Source: a virus. Taken from it: 37,583 nucleotides of DNA. The stretch covers positions 1 to 37,583 of the IMG/VR virus record IMGVR_UViG_3300047476_002081; one strand, given 5' to 3'. Below are positions 2,598 to 36,428 of the stretch, piece by piece. The first letter of the stretch is position 1. The number at the start of each line of letters is the position of its first letter. The notes under the pieces were generated by a model. The model was not told the origin of the DNA and ran no database searches. It saw nothing but the letters and a program-made list of their open reading frames with translations. The translations under genes and the position numbers were made by a program.

Positions 2598-3593
2598 ATG
2601 GACTTGGAAACGACTGAGTATACTGAGACATTTGAAGTTCAATTGCCTGAGATTGATGCGCCTACACAAACTTTAGTGACGATCGACACTGAAACAGGTG
2701 TGCATGAGGTAGAGGATCTTCCAGAAGACAACGAAGAAAACAGGGCTATTCTAAATCGTATCGACGAAAGAAAGACACACATAACGAATGAGTGGTGGAA
2801 TTTAGCAGGCGATCTATTTGAAGTACAAAAGCGATCTCTACACCGCTTAGCTGGTTATCAAAATATTGAAGATTATTTTTGCTCTATTATCGATAACACT
2901 GCTCGATATGCTTTCGATTTAACATCGATGTATAAATATTACACTGTATCTTTGCCTGTTTTGCTAGTTGATCGACCTGAAATTTATTCAGATCTAATGT
3001 CTAAAGTAAAAAGTCTTGGCGTAACCAAGGCAAAAGAAATTACTAGAGGCAAGATCAAGGATCCAGATACTTTGATTGAAGTTATCAATCAAGCGTCCAC
3101 GCCTAATCAAAACGGTCGTATTCGAACAGTTGATGAAATTAAAACTCTTATGTTGAATTACAAAGAAACAAAAGAGGCATCAGTTGGCGAATTTGAAGCA
3201 GAAAAAGAGCGTAAGGCTGAGGATGAGAAAAAGTTAGCTAATAAGAAAGAAACATTTAAATTCAAGCTACCTTTCGGCCAAGCTGAAAAAGTAAATGATG
3301 TATTGCGGTTGATCCTTACAAAGTATGGAATGGAAGATAATGACAAGGAACGCGCCTTAGCATTCTTTAGAATTTGTGAAGAATGGTCGATTGAAAATCA
3401 GGCAGATACCGAAGGTGTTCGTCCTGGCATTGAGGCTGATCTCAAACGCCTCGAAGAGATTTATTCAGTTCGCATCGTAGCTTTCCCATCTGATCGCGCT
3501 GGCAATTTGCTGTTAGACGATGAGGGTTTATCGTTTAAATTTGGCGAGGAAACTTTCAGGCAAGTTGTTGAAGTAGATGAAGATGATAAGTGA
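2598..3593 (+). CDS. Charged protein with a possible DNA-binding helical domain
   Basis: A 331-residue acidic protein of unknown function. Residues about 50-110 (NEWWNLAGDLFEVQKRSLHRLAGYQNIEDYF) have the pattern W-L-G-L-ly-ly-Gy-s-eeYf found in helical DNA-binding segments of plasmid and phage proteins. A central charged stretch (about 195-220, rich in Lys and Glu) is likely a coiled coil or linker, and a folded C-terminal part follows. ATG 2598 is chosen because GGAG lies 6 bases upstream; the frame is open from TTG 2586. It is the last gene of the recombination operon, followed by two hairpins. Confidence 0.55.
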   Translation: MDLETTEYTETFEVQLPEIDAPTQTLVTIDTETGVHEVEDLPEDNEENRAILNRIDERKTHITNEWWNLAGDLFEVQKRSLHRLAGYQNIEDYFCSIIDNTARYAFDLTSMYKYYTVSLPVLLVDRPEIYSDLMSKVKSLGVTKAKEITRGKIKDPDTLIEVINQASTPNQNGRIRTVDEIKTLMLNYKETKEASVGEFEAEKERKAEDEKKLANKKETFKFKLPFGQAEKVNDVLRLILTKYGMEDNDKERALAFFRICEEWSIENQADTEGVRPGIEADLKRLEEIYSVRIVAFPSDRAGNLLLDDEGLSFKFGEETFRQVVEVDEDDK

Positions 3594-3609
3594 TTGCAAT
3601 AGGAAGCAG

Positions 3610-24618: not shown

Positions 24619-24640
24619 TCTAATAATTGTGAGGGGACAT

Positions 24641-25516
24641 ATGAGCAATCAGCCTGAAACAAAAACTATCAGTGTGCATGGCTTAGAATGCACTGTTGAA
24701 AAAAGATTTTGTGCAGGCGGTTGTGGAAAAGAGTTTTGGGTTTTTCCTGAAAGCAAAGCGAAACATGCTAGAAGTGATTGTCTATATGTTTGCAATGTGC
24801 CTATAAACGAAATACCAGAATACATAATGAAAAGGTTCGATAGCGAATATACGCTTGATGTATCAAGAATTAATGTTGATGATGAGAAGAAGAGATACGC
24901 TAAACAAACTCTATTCAACAGATCGAATGTAGTTTCTGATGAAATAAAAAAAAACAAAAGGGAAGAAAGAAAAGAAAGAAAAGAAAAGGATATCATACTG
25001 AAGAATGCTAGACAGTCATTTAGATGGAATAGAGCGATAGAACGAGTTAAAAAGATAATAAAGAACAAATCAAAGCTCCCGCGTTATCGAGAAATAGTCG
25101 CTATCATTGCCAAATCAGTAGTAACGAATAAAAAGAATTTCAGTATTAAATGTTTTTCTAGTCAAGCAGGATTAGATAGAAAAACATTACAAACATGGCT
25201 GTGCGTTAAATACGACATAATAAACAAGATAGAGGGATATGATGGTAATTTCCTGGCTGCGAGAAGGACGCGAGACATCGTAAGGAAGAATAATAAGCAA
25301 GACATTTCAGAAATCTATCAAAAGGAAAAAGAAAAATGTCTTCAAAAAAAACTAGAAATAAAAACATCAAATCAAAGAAAAAAACAGACACAAACAAATC
25401 AAAAAGACATTTTACACTTGAACAAAGAAGACAAATCGAATGGCTTATCGACAACAAACAGCGATGGAAAAATGAAGACTTATCGTTTGAAGATAAAGTT
25501 AAAATATGTTTCTTGA
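24641..25516 (+). CDS. Basic protein with an N-terminal Cys cluster, unknown function
   Basis: A 291-residue, very basic protein. Near the N-terminus FCAGGCGKEFWVFPES, with a later SDCLYVCN, resembles a zinc-binding motif as in HNH-associated or zinc-finger proteins. The middle is Lys/Arg-rich helical. FSSQAGLDRKTLQTWL near residue 175 looks like a helix-turn-helix. The last 60 residues overlap the next gene in a different frame for 181 bases and are of less natural composition. GAGGGGAC lies just before ATG 24641; the frame is open from GTG 24629. It may be a nucleic-acid-binding regulator. Confidence 0.45.
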   Translation: MSNQPETKTISVHGLECTVEKRFCAGGCGKEFWVFPESKAKHARSDCLYVCNVPINEIPEYIMKRFDSEYTLDVSRINVDDEKKRYAKQTLFNRSNVVSDEIKKNKREERKERKEKDIILKNARQSFRWNRAIERVKKIIKNKSKLPRYREIVAIIAKSVVTNKKNFSIKCFSSQAGLDRKTLQTWLCVKYDIINKIEGYDGNFLAARRTRDIVRKNNKQDISEIYQKEKEKCLQKKLEIKTSNQRKKQTQTNQKDILHLNKEDKSNGLSTTNSDGKMKTYRLKIKLKYVS

Positions 25517-25632
25517 TGAGGTATGAAGGCGTATTCATAGATTTAAAGTATGGTGAATTGATATTGTCGAGTTTAATGGCTGAAGTTGAACGTCAATTGG
25601 ATAATTCATATGATCGTCACAGACAAATTTAA
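25336..25632 (+). CDS. Small basic protein upstream of the terminase gene
   Basis: A 98-residue protein with a Lys-rich N-terminus and a helical remainder (RHFTLEQRRQIEWLIDNKQRW, then EDKVKICFLMRYEG, then ELILSSLMAEVERQLD). AGGA precedes the ATG. It overlaps the preceding gene by 181 bases and the terminase gene by 23 bases. A small DNA-binding packaging factor is possible; no family was recognised. Confidence 0.45.
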   Translation: MSSKKTRNKNIKSKKKTDTNKSKRHFTLEQRRQIEWLIDNKQRWKNEDLSFEDKVKICFLMRYEGVFIDLKYGELILSSLMAEVERQLDNSYDRHRQI

Positions 25633-27883
25633 GTCTTATTCTCTATTCACATTTCAAGAGCTTCAAGAAAGTATAACGCAAGACATTGAGAATATGACCG
25701 ATGCTGAGCGTGCGGTTTTTTTTGAGATGCTTTCTAATCCTAGTTTAGAAAGCGATCTAACCGCACTAGAGTTAGATCGTGATATGGTTTCAGTGGAGCA
25801 ATGGATTGAAGACGATTATTACATGGGTAGTTTGGGTAAATCTATTTACAAGCCATGGAAAGATGATTTAATAGAACTCTTTGATTCAGGCCAATACGAT
25901 ACTGCAATTATTCAAGGCGGTATTGGCTGTCTTGCTGGTGAAACTCTTGTGCAGATGGCTGATGGAGATTTAAAACGGCTTAAAGACTTAAATGGCAAAT
26001 CAACTCATATTTTAGCATTTGATAAACCTAATTTGGCTGTTGGCGTTCATAACGGCTTTAAACTTCTTTATGAGATAAAATTAAAAAATGGTTTGATCAT
26101 TAAGGCTACTTCAGAACATAAATTTATGACTCAGGATGGCTGGACTAGAACAGATCAATTAGATATCAATAGGCACAAAATAAAATCACCAAGATTAATT
26201 AAAACTGTCCCTACCGAGTTTTTAATATCATTTGATCAAGCTAGATTTCTTGGCGCTTTATTTTCATGTCAAAGAATAGTTAAGCGAGATAATGGTTATC
26301 TTATTTTTAGGCACGATAAAGATAAAATCGATACGCTGGCATTTTTGGCTGATAAAGTAAATGTCAAGAATAGTAGGTATAATGATTTGTCTTTGTTTTT
26401 TGCTGACTCAGATATTAAAAGTTTTATGTCTATTTTTGATATAGACAATTTATTAGATACTAAAAAAATACCATCAAGAATATTAAAGTCAGATAATTCT
26501 ATTTTAGCAGCATTTTTATCTGGTCTGAGTTTAAATGCTGTTCTTGAAAAGAATATAGCCAGAACTATGTTTTCGATTAGCTACTTCTTTTCAAGCAAAT
26601 CATTTTGTGAAGAAATTCAATTGGCTTTTAGACGATTTGGAATAAGGTTTAAAAGTTTTCATTGCAGTCAAGGCAAGAACAAAACAAGAAGAATCTGTTT
26701 GGAAATAACAGCAAAAGACAGCCTGATAGATTTTTATCAGAATATAGGTTTTGTTCAGGATTCAATGCGAATTAAATTAAAAGAGTTCATACCGCTTATA
26801 GAATTAAAGCTAAATAGAGTTAGGTTAGATTTTATACCTACAACTTATAAAGAATTGGTGAGTTGGTGTAAAAGGCATAAATGCGATATATGGAAACAAA
26901 AAAGCTATTGGTTATCTGGTAAATCAAAAGATCTTTATGCCAGTTATAGAGAAGTCAAATCTGTGATTGATCATTATCCACATATGATTTGTCATGCGTG
27001 GGAAATACAATTTGATCCTGACAGTTTTTGGGATGATGTCGTTTCTATTAAAGAAGCTGGATATGAGAATTGTTATGACCTAGTTGTGCCTGATGAGAAT
27101 TGTTATTTATCGAATGGCATTCTTTGTCATAATTCTGGAAAATCGACGTTTTCTCATTTAGTAGTTTTGCGCATGCTCTATGAAGCATCATGCCTTAAAA
27201 ATCCAGCTATAAGTTATGGTCTAGCAGCTAATTCAGTTATTGGATTTTGTTCATTAGCTAAATCAAAAGAGACAGCTAGACGCGTAGTATTTGATCAAAT
27301 AGCCGCTAAAATACAAGAATCGCCATATTTTAAATACGACTTTGCTCCACTAAAACCTTTAAAAGATGAAATTATATTTCCAAAAGGTTTAGCTATTATT
27401 TGCGGTTCATCGACTGATACATCAATCATTGGTATGAACATATTTGGCGGCATTATTGATGAAGTTAACTTTTGGGGAAAAGTAAAAAAGAGTAATGCTA
27501 GCTTTACAAAGAATTGGGGATCAGAAAGTAAATCAGGTCGCCTATTCGATTCGGTTCGTCGAAGGATGAAATCTCGCTATGTAAAAAAAGGTAAATTACC
27601 TGGCATTATTATGCTTATTTCATCTAAAACAACAAAAGATAGTTTAACAGAGCAATTCATAAGAAAAGAGCAAGCTCTAGGTAATAAATCAACATTCGTT
27701 AGAGATCGATCAATTATTGAGATGAAAAGAGGTTCGTTCTCATCTAAGACATTTAGAGTTTTAGTTGGAACTACAGACTATGTTTCAAGGATTATTGGCG
27801 ACACAGAAGAAATTAAAGACGAAAATGCTTTAATAGTAGAAATACCCGAAGACTTCAGAGTCGATTTTGTAAACAAAATATAA
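25610..27883 (+). CDS. terL: Terminase large subunit, ATPase part, interrupted by an intein
   Basis: The DNA-packaging motor ATPase. The precursor has 757 residues: N-extein 1-106, intein 107-508, C-extein 509-757. After splicing GGIG joins SGKST to make the P-loop GGIGSGKST. Walker B is GGIIDEVNFW with Asp617 and Glu618. The C-extein goes on with LPGIIMLISSKTTKD (motif III region) and FRVLVGTTDYVSRI. The frame ends in TAA TAA at 27881-27886, but the nuclease half continues in the same frame from 27887. The protein would thus lack its nuclease domain unless the stops are bypassed. ATG 25610 is preferred; the frame is open from TTG 25586. The start overlaps the preceding gene. Confidence 0.9.
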   Translation: MIVTDKFKSYSLFTFQELQESITQDIENMTDAERAVFFEMLSNPSLESDLTALELDRDMVSVEQWIEDDYYMGSLGKSIYKPWKDDLIELFDSGQYDTAIIQGGIGCLAGETLVQMADGDLKRLKDLNGKSTHILAFDKPNLAVGVHNGFKLLYEIKLKNGLIIKATSEHKFMTQDGWTRTDQLDINRHKIKSPRLIKTVPTEFLISFDQARFLGALFSCQRIVKRDNGYLIFRHDKDKIDTLAFLADKVNVKNSRYNDLSLFFADSDIKSFMSIFDIDNLLDTKKIPSRILKSDNSILAAFLSGLSLNAVLEKNIARTMFSISYFFSSKSFCEEIQLAFRRFGIRFKSFHCSQGKNKTRRICLEITAKDSLIDFYQNIGFVQDSMRIKLKEFIPLIELKLNRVRLDFIPTTYKELVSWCKRHKCDIWKQKSYWLSGKSKDLYASYREVKSVIDHYPHMICHAWEIQFDPDSFWDDVVSIKEAGYENCYDLVVPDENCYLSNGILCHNSGKSTFSHLVVLRMLYEASCLKNPAISYGLAANSVIGFCSLAKSKETARRVVFDQIAAKIQESPYFKYDFAPLKPLKDEIIFPKGLAIICGSSTDTSIIGMNIFGGIIDEVNFWGKVKKSNASFTKNWGSESKSGRLFDSVRRRMKSRYVKKGKLPGIIMLISSKTTKDSLTEQFIRKEQALGNKSTFVRDRSIIEMKRGSFSSKTFRVLVGTTDYVSRIIGDTEEIKDENALIVEIPEDFRVDFVNKI
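25928..27133 (+). mobile_element. Intein with a decayed LAGLIDADG endonuclease, in the terminase P-loop
   Basis: A 402-residue intein. Block A begins with Cys107 (CLAGETLVQMADGD), block B contains TSEH (167-170), block F/G is CYDLVVPDENCYLSNGILCHN with His507-Asn508, and the +1 residue is Ser509, so all splicing residues are present. Between them lies a homing endonuclease domain whose two LAGLIDADG helices have become FLGALFSC (213-220) and FLSGLSLNA (302-310). Both have lost the acidic metal-binding residue, so cleavage is probably dead while splicing is kept. It sits between Gly and Ser of the Walker A motif, where failure to splice would destroy packaging. Confidence 0.93.
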
Positions 27884-27886
27884 TAA

Positions 27887-28984
27887 ACGTTAAGAGACAT
27901 TGCTGGTATATCGACTCTTGCTATTTCAAATTTTATATCAAAAGTTGAAAAAATAAATGAAATGGTTGATCCATCAAGGGTTCATCCTTTCTCATGTCCA
28001 TTTATGCCAGATCCTACTACATGGGATAGTCGTAGAAACTACCATATGAATTGGGATGCTTTGGCTATTCGTTTAGATAACGGTGATTGGAAACCAAGAT
28101 TGAATCCTGAAGCTGCTAGGCATGTTCATTTTGATCCAGGGTTCACAGGCGATAGTTTTGGTTTAGCGATTACTCATGTTGGTGGGTTTGTTCCAGTTGA
28201 GCAAAGCGGTGAGATAATTGAATACAAGCCATTGTTTATTATTGATTTCATACTAGAAATAAAAGGCTCTAAAGAAGAAGAAGTATTGAATCATAATGTT
28301 AGAAAGCTTTGTTATGAGTTTGTTGCTCATGGTTTTCATTTGGCTGAATTTAGTACGGATACATATCAAAGTAGAGAGATGATTCAGCAATTAGAGCAGC
28401 AAGGATTTAAAGCAGGGGTTTATTCTGTTGACACTGGCATTTCTTCGCGTGGTGAAAATGTTGTAACGGATGCCGTTGGTAAAATTCCAAAGGCAAAGCA
28501 AGCGTATTGGTATTTTCGTTCTGCAATTTATGAGGGCAGGGTAAAATGTTATGATTATCCAAGATTCCTTGGGGAATTAAGACGATTAGAAGAAGGTCCA
28601 GACAAAATAGACCATCCAGAAGGTGAAAGCAAAGATTTAGCCGATGCAGCGTGCGGTTCGATTTGGACTTTATATCGAGCTAAATATACGGGGGACGTTC
28701 TTATGCCGAGCAGGGGAATAAGTGAATCTGCAACGGGTATAGGTGAAACATTGTTAGATTATCAGCAGAGTTTAATTGAAGGCGATAATGTTTTAATAAC
28801 AAAACAGCTTCACAATGATGAAATCTCTGATGTTAATCCTAGCCAATCTGAGAAGAAGGTTTATCATAAGAAAAAACCTGTTACGCTGTCTCCATCATAT
28901 AAAAAAGTATCTGCTAATGGATCGGTATCGGATATGCGTCAAGGGCATGAGTATGATGTGGAAGCTTATATTCAGCGCGGCTAA
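27887..28984 (+). CDS. terL: Terminase large subunit, nuclease part, split from the ATPase by tandem stops
   Basis: The nuclease that cuts the DNA concatemer. From 27887 the frame reads TLRDIAGISTLAISNF, which matches the sequence that follows the ATPase domain in intact terminases (aLRDIaGvst). It has an RNase H-like core: HFDPGFTGDS (Asp58 counted from ATG 27962), EFSTDTYQS (Asp133) and KDLADAACGS (Asp225/228). The only visible start is ATG 27962, which has no ribosome binding site and would skip the first 25 codons. The frame is the same as that of the ATPase part. The C-terminal 90 residues are a polar tail. Read-through, re-initiation or a broken gene are all possible. The nuclease identity is secure; its expression is not. 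Confidence 0.8.
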   Translation, partial: TLRDIAGISTLAISNFISKVEKINEMVDPSRVHPFSCPFMPDPTTWDSRRNYHMNWDALAIRLDNGDWKPRLNPEAARHVHFDPGFTGDSFGLAITHVGGFVPVEQSGEIIEYKPLFIIDFILEIKGSKEEEVLNHNVRKLCYEFVAHGFHLAEFSTDTYQSREMIQQLEQQGFKAGVYSVDTGISSRGENVVTDAVGKIPKAKQAYWYFRSAIYEGRVKCYDYPRFLGELRRLEEGPDKIDHPEGESKDLADAACGSIWTLYRAKYTGDVLMPSRGISESATGIGETLLDYQQSLIEGDNVLITKQLHNDEISDVNPSQSEKKVYHKKKPVTLSPSYKKVSANGSVSDMRQGHEYDVEAYIQRG

Positions 28985-34238: not shown

Positions 34239-36428
34239 ATGAATAACAAAAAAATAAGTAATAACGCATTTAAAGCGAGTGATATTCATAGACTTGTAGA
34301 ATTGACAGAGAATTATTTCCATGAGGATAAAGATTTTACTCTTTATGAACTTTTAAAAATGGATCAATCAGCCATGATTAAGGCTGTTAGGTCTATGGAT
34401 GTTTTAAAAGATAAACCGCGTCTTAGTAAGCTTGTATTTGAAGGCATTGCTCAAATAAAACAGATCACTAGTCATGGTGGGAAGGTTCATAATCAAGAGC
34501 TAAAAGCGCTTGAGAAAGTTTTTTCATTCAAAGATGTGCAGGCTGCAATTTCGGAAGCACTTCAAGCTTACAATAAGAAAATTGGTTATGATCCAATTTC
34601 TATGAATCAAAAAGATTCGGTTGAAGAACGGATGATCTCAGGCACGGCTGGCAATCTCAACTTTAAGCCTCGTGGCAATGGTCAAAGCGCAAGAAAGACG
34701 ATGAAGCCAGATGATGAGAAACGCTTAGCTGTTTTAAAGGCTCAGCTTTTAACTACGCCTTTGGCTCAAAAGCAAAAGGTTATGGATCAGATTCAAGCTA
34801 TTCAGGCTCGTTATGAGTCAAAAGAATTGTCTGTTTACGTTGAGATTGATGATGATGGCAAGATAACCAGGATGGATACTGAAGCTTTTAGAAAAGCTAT
34901 AGGTGGTCCCCGTACTGGCTTTGCTCAGGATTGGGTGGACAAGTATAACAAGGAAAAGGGTAAAAAAATGGCTCGCCTTGTTTATGCAAAGAATGGAAAA
35001 GAGATTGGTCGCACAGTAAAAGAATCAAAAGGCAAGTGGGCAAAGCTTGCAGAGTCGCATTTTCAGAACAAGGCTAAATATGAGTCGCGTTATTTCAATG
35101 AAGGCAAGGAGGAAATAGCGTTAGCAATTAAAGAAAAAATGAAGGCAGCAAAGAGTGAATATAATGTATTTCCAAATGAGATCAAAAGAAACCTGACAAC
35201 AGGTGAAATGGTCTATTTACATTATTCAAGAGATGCTGATATGGCTCTTGCCAATCCTAATTATGGAATGAGAGCAAAGATTGTTGCCATGACTAATAGT
35301 ATTATGGTTCTAAAAATCAATCCTGCTATCGTTAATAACAAAGAAGGGAAACTGATTGATCAGCATGGGTTTCTTGCCTTTCCAAAGAATAAAAAAATAC
35401 GAGGATTGGCAAGCATTTATGTCTATGACTTCCTTGCAGGTAATAGTACGGATGCAAACCTCGGCCTTGTGTTCATTGGATCAATGAGTTCTCATTTGAT
35501 CGAATCAGTCAAAAGAGAAACCAAAGACTTCATCAAGGGTTCCATATTTGCTGAGGATTCAAAACTTAACGAAGGCGGTCCTGGTTCTGGTGGAGCGAAT
35601 AGACCACTTCGCAATATGAAGATGCCATTGAGTCCTTTTATTTCAGTCGGCACTCGCAAGGGTATTTTGCAGAATATGCCATTTGACCTTGAAGATGTGC
35701 CATTGAATGCAATTACGCATGTAGCTCAAAGACGGTTTGTTCCATCGAAGGTTTCATCGTTGGTCAAAAATGCGGACGTTGTATCAAAAAAACCCGTTTG
35801 TCTTTTAAAGATCCCGTCAGAAAATTGCTATCATGTGATGGATGGACATCATCGGTTTTTAGCCGCGCAAAAATTAGGCTTAGAGACGATCCCAGCGCGA
35901 GTGTGGGTAAAGTTCGAGACACCGTTAGAGGATGAGGCTAGCGATGAATTGGACGGCTTGGAAGCGGTAGCCATTGAAAACGAGATACCATCTGATACCG
36001 CACATACAGAAGAACCTACGCCAGAAGCGTCACCTACATCGAATGAAACTCCAATGGGACCATCTGCTACGCCAATAGATGAACCAGCGCCTTTAGTTGA
36101 ACCAGTCAGTGATTCACAGCCAAGTCAAGATGCTCCAATAGAAAGTCCAATGGATGCTCCTTTAGACGCTCCAACAGATCAAGCAGCTACAGGCGAAACT
36201 GATGTTGAAATCACTGTCCCTGTGCATGAGCATTTTCAGACAGTGTGCGAAAAATGCGATGATGTAATGGAATCGTGCGGTTGTACTAATGAAGATTTAG
36301 TGCAAGCGAGTATTGTTTCTGAAAAGTCAGTTTGTGAGGCTTGCAAAGAAAACTCATTTGTTCCTACGCTAGAGCAGGCTTTGCGCTCTATGCATTTGAG
36401 TCAAAAGAAATTATCATATTTAATCTGA
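34239..36428 (+). CDS. Multidomain protein with a ParB/Srx-like domain, virion or assembly related
   Basis: A 729-residue protein. The first 130 residues are helical. Residues about 170-300 are basic and contain GFAQDWVDKYNKEKGKKMARLVYAKNG, then a domain to about 435. A Gly/Pro-rich linker EGGPGSGG starts at 445, as in phage proteins joined to head-assembly modules. A ParB/Srx-like fold follows: RFVPSKVSSLVKN, KKPVCLLKIP, and the DGHHR box (535-539) with FLAAQKLGLETIPARV. A disordered stretch rich in Pro, Ser and Thr spans about 590-660. Cys pairs occur at 670-690 (CEKC, CGC) and 699 (CEAC), possibly binding zinc. It follows the portal cluster, so a role in head assembly or as an injected protein is possible. 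Confidence 0.6.
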   Translation: MNNKKISNNAFKASDIHRLVELTENYFHEDKDFTLYELLKMDQSAMIKAVRSMDVLKDKPRLSKLVFEGIAQIKQITSHGGKVHNQELKALEKVFSFKDVQAAISEALQAYNKKIGYDPISMNQKDSVEERMISGTAGNLNFKPRGNGQSARKTMKPDDEKRLAVLKAQLLTTPLAQKQKVMDQIQAIQARYESKELSVYVEIDDDGKITRMDTEAFRKAIGGPRTGFAQDWVDKYNKEKGKKMARLVYAKNGKEIGRTVKESKGKWAKLAESHFQNKAKYESRYFNEGKEEIALAIKEKMKAAKSEYNVFPNEIKRNLTTGEMVYLHYSRDADMALANPNYGMRAKIVAMTNSIMVLKINPAIVNNKEGKLIDQHGFLAFPKNKKIRGLASIYVYDFLAGNSTDANLGLVFIGSMSSHLIESVKRETKDFIKGSIFAEDSKLNEGGPGSGGANRPLRNMKMPLSPFISVGTRKGILQNMPFDLEDVPLNAITHVAQRRFVPSKVSSLVKNADVVSKKPVCLLKIPSENCYHVMDGHHRFLAAQKLGLETIPARVWVKFETPLEDEASDELDGLEAVAIENEIPSDTAHTEEPTPEASPTSNETPMGPSATPIDEPAPLVEPVSDSQPSQDAPIESPMDAPLDAPTDQAATGETDVEITVPVHEHFQTVCEKCDDVMESCGCTNEDLVQASIVSEKSVCEACKENSFVPTLEQALRSMHLSQKKLSYLI

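Follow-up and report, generated by a model that had tools for sequence, protein, structure and literature searches.

The window, i.e., the whole stretch of DNA analyzed here, is a 37,583-base virus fragment from IMG/VR, and its gene for the large terminase subunit (TerL) is interrupted in the P-loop by an intein that is probably still selected to splice although its nuclease is very probably dead, a reading held with good confidence. At the same site, other terminases have no intein, an intein with an intact LAGLIDADG nuclease, or an intein with an HNH nuclease gene on the opposite strand. The inteins with an antisense HNH very likely form a widespread class of the TerL P-loop, in which the nuclease has its own start and often a ribosome binding site, the sense frame stays stop-free only for splicing, and the window copy stands as a LAGLIDADG rival. 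The P-loop of phage TerL would be a heavily contested homing site, where the window intein sits at full length. In the rival design, a Hint domain is encoded in the TerL frame and a separate HNH gene is nested on the opposite strand of the uninterrupted intein ORF.

The ORF at 25586–27883 encodes the ATPase part of TerL together with an insertion of 402 codons (25928–27133, plus strand) that ORF analysis shows to be stop-free and in the TerL frame. The initial annotation had placed an intein inside the Walker A motif at these positions, and its coordinates proved exact: the insertion scores above cutoff with Pfam Intein_splicing (E 1.1e-14) and with NCBIfam intein_Nterm (E 2.5e-7), and it also matches the PDB structures of the Ssp and Npu DnaB inteins. 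Upstream, the N-extein extends from the TerL start codon (ATG 25610; alternatively TTG 25586) to the GGIG of Walker A (25610–25927, plus strand) and is homologous to L001-L013 and L025-L031. The limits of the intein itself, from Cys1 to His401-Asn402, are given by Pfam, NCBIfam, the DnaB mini-inteins in the PDB, and intein-free homologues. Splicing block B reads TSEH (residues 61-64, 26108–26119, plus strand), its T61 and H64 being kept across a four-member intein alignment, and the C-terminal splicing blocks (residues 356-402, 26993–27133, plus strand), delimited by the end of the Pfam profile and a PDB alignment over 364-401, finish with ILCHN. All the splicing residues (Cys1, T61-S-E-H64, H401-N402, and Ser+1) are present. 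Since the intein is flanked by GGIG and SGKST, its excision rebuilds GGIGSGKST, and the same seam is found uninterrupted, as GGIGSGKS, in the intein-free homologues L011, L012, L025, and L026, which bears out the earlier reading of intact splicing residues and a restored motif. Judged from its sequence, the window intein should splice, and it would still be selected to do so because only splicing rebuilds GGIGSGKST.

Inteins of the same family are inserted between the same two residues in L003-L006 (35% identity to the window copy) and L028/L029 (27%). Only about five distinct members of this family are known, and a search of 50,697 phage records with the window-type intein gave no match. The nuclease part was examined with an AF2 model (mean pLDDT 63 overall, mostly 80-90 in the first LAGLIDADG half), which Foldseek relates to an intein with a double LAGLIDADG fold (matches to TliVMA 7qss, E 6.7e-9, PI-PfuI, PI-SceI, and I-DmoI); the Pfam LAGLIDADG_3 profile remains sub-threshold, at 20.7 bits for a cutoff of 22.5. 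The two motif helices are found in the model at residues 102-112 and 190-199, and both have lost their acid. Motif C, FLGALFSCQ (residues 107-115, 26246–26272, plus strand), has C114 (26267-26269) at the position of the catalytic Asp, and motif E, FLSGLSLNA (residues 196-204, 26513–26539, plus strand), has N203 (26534-26536), as placed by alignment with the intein of L029. The latter, an independent and intact relative, keeps Asp in both acid columns within the motifs WVGMVTADG and YLRGLFLDA; at the same TerL site, L003, and likewise L005, shows Ala and Ser in these two columns of the alignment. The lack of a catalytic acid in both helices, noticed at the outset from the window sequence alone, is thus confirmed both by the model and by comparison with inteins at the same site. 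No HNH is hidden in the other frames of the window intein, where the longest minus-strand ORF has 94 aa. The homing nuclease is very probably dead on this sequence evidence, and the intein would be unable to home by itself because its LAGLIDADG nuclease has lost both catalytic acids. Its intact splicing residues and its two losses relative to L029 agree with the original proposal of an intein kept for splicing but unable to home. Within the homing cycle, it would have reached the stage of degeneration, its nuclease domain being kept for folding or splicing and not for cutting.

Why such a domain should be retained at full length can be accounted for in several ways. Conservation within the intein is lowest in the nuclease halves (window vs. 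L003: 22-29% identity, compared with 52% in the N-terminal splicing block), while the homing endonuclease (HEN) region of L003-L005 is still constrained in its one divergent tract (dN/dS 0.27-0.34). We infer that the domain serves as a structural scaffold, a role that this constraint fits, although the argument relies on a single tract because so few family members are known; such a role has been described in the literature as a mutualism between HEN and splicing domain. WhiA is a LAGLIDADG relative that turned into a transcription factor, and reuse of the dead domain as a DNA-binding regulator of this kind would agree with the residual constraint in L003-L005 and with the preservation of the whole domain in two lineages devoid of the acids. 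However, a regulator of this kind is improbable here, given the low conservation of the nuclease halves, a domain for which no target is known and whose retention is more simply explained by scaffold constraint. Still less probable is residual nuclease activity, whether based on other residues or limited to nicking: although the LAGLIDADG fold as a whole is kept, the helices, which otherwise align with those of the intact L029, have no acid at either position, and the PhoVMA intein, which lacks the active-site aspartates, was inactive (PMC8966425). Retention as a scaffold accordingly remains the preferred reading of the domain.

Besides the intein, TerL of the window is affected by two adjacent in-frame stop codons (27881–27886, plus strand), which lie between the ATPase and nuclease parts and which were overlooked in the initial annotation. 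They follow the C-extein, i.e., the ATPase part from SGKST to the first end of the TerL ORF (27134–27880, plus strand), which is 78-82% identical to L001 and L003 and matches the PHROG terminase large subunit. The frame is open at this position in all 13 of the 13 first-found relatives, the stops being unique to the window among those examined. Beyond them, conserved TerL sequence resumes in the same frame and continues to 28984, and the nuclease part (27887–28984, plus strand; first ATG 27962) was identified by tblastn to relatives and 338 phage records. Conservation is high in the first 25 codons past the stops (pN 0.09 vs. L001). TerL of the window thus has GGIGSGKST, once joined, and IIDE, with the nuclease part in frame behind two stops. 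All the other window genes for which the 55-kb and 95-kb relatives have a homologue are without an in-frame stop, and a reading of TAA as sense therefore finds no support; no tRNA genes were found within the window. No Shine-Dalgarno sequence precedes ATG 27962, a feature present in only 7 of the 26 window genes, and a promoter and terminator scan around TerL gave nothing exceeding shuffles. A frameshift in the gene before TerL, considered for the overlapping ORFs 24629-25516 and 25336-25632, was discarded since relatives share the same overlap. The stops may be an assembly artefact, a lesion of recent date, or the result of gene fission, in which case the nuclease would form a chain of its own. 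The interrupted TerL of this record possibly makes no normal packaging motor and, if the stops disable the packaging gene, selection to splice may have ended recently. Elsewhere in the window, the gene at 34239-36428 has about 146 extra codons (35097-35534) compared with its G002 relative, upstream of a ParB-like match; no intein motifs were seen in the translated extra segment.

The position of the intein had also led to the suggestion that splicing acts as a switch delaying packaging. A P-loop ATPase needs an intact Walker A, and because this motif is restored only by splicing, packaging ATPase activity should indeed require it, so that this part of the proposal stands on general knowledge of P-loop ATPases. 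The further step, according to which the intein is kept in order to hold back packaging until redox or stress conditions permit, can draw on this dependence and on the Cys nucleophile, which is redox-sensitive in principle from what is generally known of inteins. Against it stands the patchy occupancy of the site in close relatives. TerL proteins 82% identical to that of the window (L001/L002/L007) carry an unrelated intein between the same two residues, and terminases 63-67% identical have none there. Nearest neighbours in the TerL tree differ in what occupies their P-loop: the window, with its degenerate LAGLIDADG, is beside L001 with another intein, L008 with another intein is beside L011 with an empty site, and L029 with an intact LAGLIDADG is beside L027, again empty. 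Unrelated or absent inteins in such close relatives form, as far as the sequences compared can tell, the pattern of a mobile element rather than that of a conserved regulator, and a mobile element accounts for the preference for the P-loop without regulation. Moreover, ready splicing was observed for those mycobacteriophage TerL inteins that were put to a laboratory test (PMC5050341). The splicing switch draws no support from these comparisons and is given little credence. A side observation concerns L011 and L012, in which the P-loop site is empty and the nuclease part of TerL is interrupted by a different intein with an HNH-like segment (DTYQ/C...HN/SRE, slashes marking the junctions).

The unrelated inteins at the residue pair of the window have an architecture of their own. 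Those of L001/L002/L007, L008-L010, and L013 contain no nuclease in their own frame; inside them, the opposite strand shows a 280-298-codon ORF in which HTH domains and HNH_3 score above the Pfam cutoff. Representative copies lie at L001 4858-6000, L008 1769-2941, and L013 4927-6000, the HNH being opposite to the TerL strand in each. The same arrangement, with the antisense HNH placed between the N- and C-blocks of an intein whose sense ORF is uninterrupted, was found at 45 distinct loci among L066-L128, collected by scans with the HNH alignment after duplicate removal and with the requirement that both splicing blocks lie in one ORF. It is shared by L001, L008, and L013 and is not that of the window copy. 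The insertion point of the 45 loci is nearly always between G and S of the P-loop, with a few between K and T, and the hosts recognized by Pfam are terminases. A first scan of genome contigs with the antisense-type C-terminal splicing block gave no relatives; another scan with this block revealed more such inteins, in unrelated terminases. L057 and L058 constitute a natural gain/loss pair: their TerL proteins are near-identical and interrupted at the same site, in L057 by a mini-intein of 135 aa (3198-3602) without the nested gene and in L058 by an intein of 289 aa (2736-3602) with a nested antisense HNH. In addition, the nuclease part of TerL is interrupted in L055 (2288-3043) and L060 (4529-5302) by a second intein (CFVAGT...HNCD), which holds an HNH-like ORF on the same strand in another frame, resembling the ShiLan insertion but within an intein.

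Long antisense ORFs are known to be common opposite genes in some registers, and the nested ORF could in principle be a mere chance open frame of this kind. Such an origin is extremely improbable in view of the specific HNH_3 and HTH homology, which extends to free-standing annotated HNH genes, and of the selection acting on the frame. In 10 close pairs, six of which are drawn from four sequences and are hence not all independent (an eleventh was saturated), dN/dS is 0.15-0.33 in the antisense frame and 0.92-1.72 in the overlapping sense frame, i.e., purifying selection is seen in the antisense frame only. Among L001, L008, L013, and L032, pairwise comparison shows most variation at antisense position 3, which equals sense position 2. 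A Shine-Dalgarno sequence lies 4-15 nt upstream of the start codon closest to the HNH start in 23 of the 45 loci but at only 72 of 1329 starts in the background (5.4%), which also speaks for a gene. The two frames keep one shared register in 45/45 loci, and the sense frame contains no stop where about 6.8 per locus are expected after synonymous shuffling of the antisense codons, a result that is partly ascertainment, as both splicing blocks in one ORF were a selection criterion. No strong HNH loci with splicing blocks on broken frames were seen in the HNH scan, however, and because stops and broken-frame loci are both absent despite the ascertainment, the sense frame is, by its sequence, held open though its amino acids are unconserved. 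A model of the sense product based on 36 sequences predicts well-defined Hint halves (pLDDT 89-97) that match the NpuDnaB intein (TM-score 0.86 by target length, rmsd 1.8), whereas residues 101-250, opposite the HNH gene, have a mean pLDDT of 38-61. The latter segment would be, on this model, a structureless filler that leaves with the intein. We infer that homing is carried out by the antisense HNH.

Public annotation overlooks TerL inteins in several cultured phages, among them Pectobacterium phages of the Ymer genus. The HNH has matches in the Pectobacterium phages Ymer, Abuela, Sabo, Koroua, Amona, Pappous, and Taid and in the Dickeya phage Setonix. In Taid (L032) and Ymer (L062), TerL is annotated as a hypothetical protein, reads GFG/C...HHN/TGKS (slashes again at the junctions), and has an unannotated opposite strand; the paper on the Ymer genus makes no mention of an intein or HNH. 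In Pseudoalteromonas phage PHS3 (L061), the HNH is annotated and the annotated TerL is cut to the part that follows the intein, while the P-loop and intein absent from this annotation can be read in the TerL frame without interruption. The antisense-HNH class explains some seemingly truncated terminases. In the T4-type portal gene adjoining TerL, G003:C1:7462-10011 and G005:C1:7117-11400 each show three collinear matching pieces within a single ORF, and the two breakpoints that they share suggest two inteins in each portal. With regard to inteins in general, they are normally viewed as a single fusion protein of a splicing domain and a nuclease. In the antisense class, nuclease and splicing are placed on opposite strands, which makes separate expression and evolution possible at the cost of the constraint of overlapping genes. 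This class makes it testable how a selfish gene hides antisense in an essential gene and is also a source of new Hint domains.

Compared with known systems, the window copy is another degenerate-nuclease intein of an already known sort. The closest parallel, PhoVMA, the VMA intein of Pyrococcus horikoshii, has lost its active-site acids and kept the scaffold, and its nuclease is inactive (PMC8966425). Like the window intein, it resides in an ATPase and retains a LAGLIDADG scaffold in which both motifs are without active-site acids; it differs by its archaeal VMA host and a partly truncated motif E, the window helices being full length with C and N. The mycobacteriophage inteins TerL1-a and TerL1-b also lie in the P-loop of a phage TerL, TerL1-a between K and T and TerL1-b one residue away, and those tested spliced, two of them cutting intein-free DNA (PMC5050341). 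In contrast, the window intein is inserted between G and S of GxxG/SGK and has a degenerate nuclease.

The antisense-HNH design is apparently undescribed: a search of mainly open-access literature, with few subscription journals or preprints, revealed no intein containing an antisense nuclease. Fractured genes, in which split inteins flank a free-standing nuclease gene, are similar in that a nuclease gene lies between intein halves, but their intein halves belong to two separate polypeptides, whereas the sense ORF of the antisense class is continuous in 45/45 loci. Antisense homing endonuclease genes are known from nuclear group I introns of myxomycetes, where the nuclease gene is likewise opposite to a self-splicing carrier; since the carrier there is an RNA intron located in rDNA, no protein reading frame has to be kept free of stops (PMC9548176). 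In the ShiLan insertion, an HNH that is a distant relative of the antisense HNH is hidden in another frame of a phage gene whose own frame stays open (PMC11855218), as in the antisense class though not in the window copy. Yet the ShiLan HNH is on the same strand, without a splicing domain or ribosome binding site, while that of the antisense class is on the opposite strand, inside a real intein, and often provided with a Shine-Dalgarno site.
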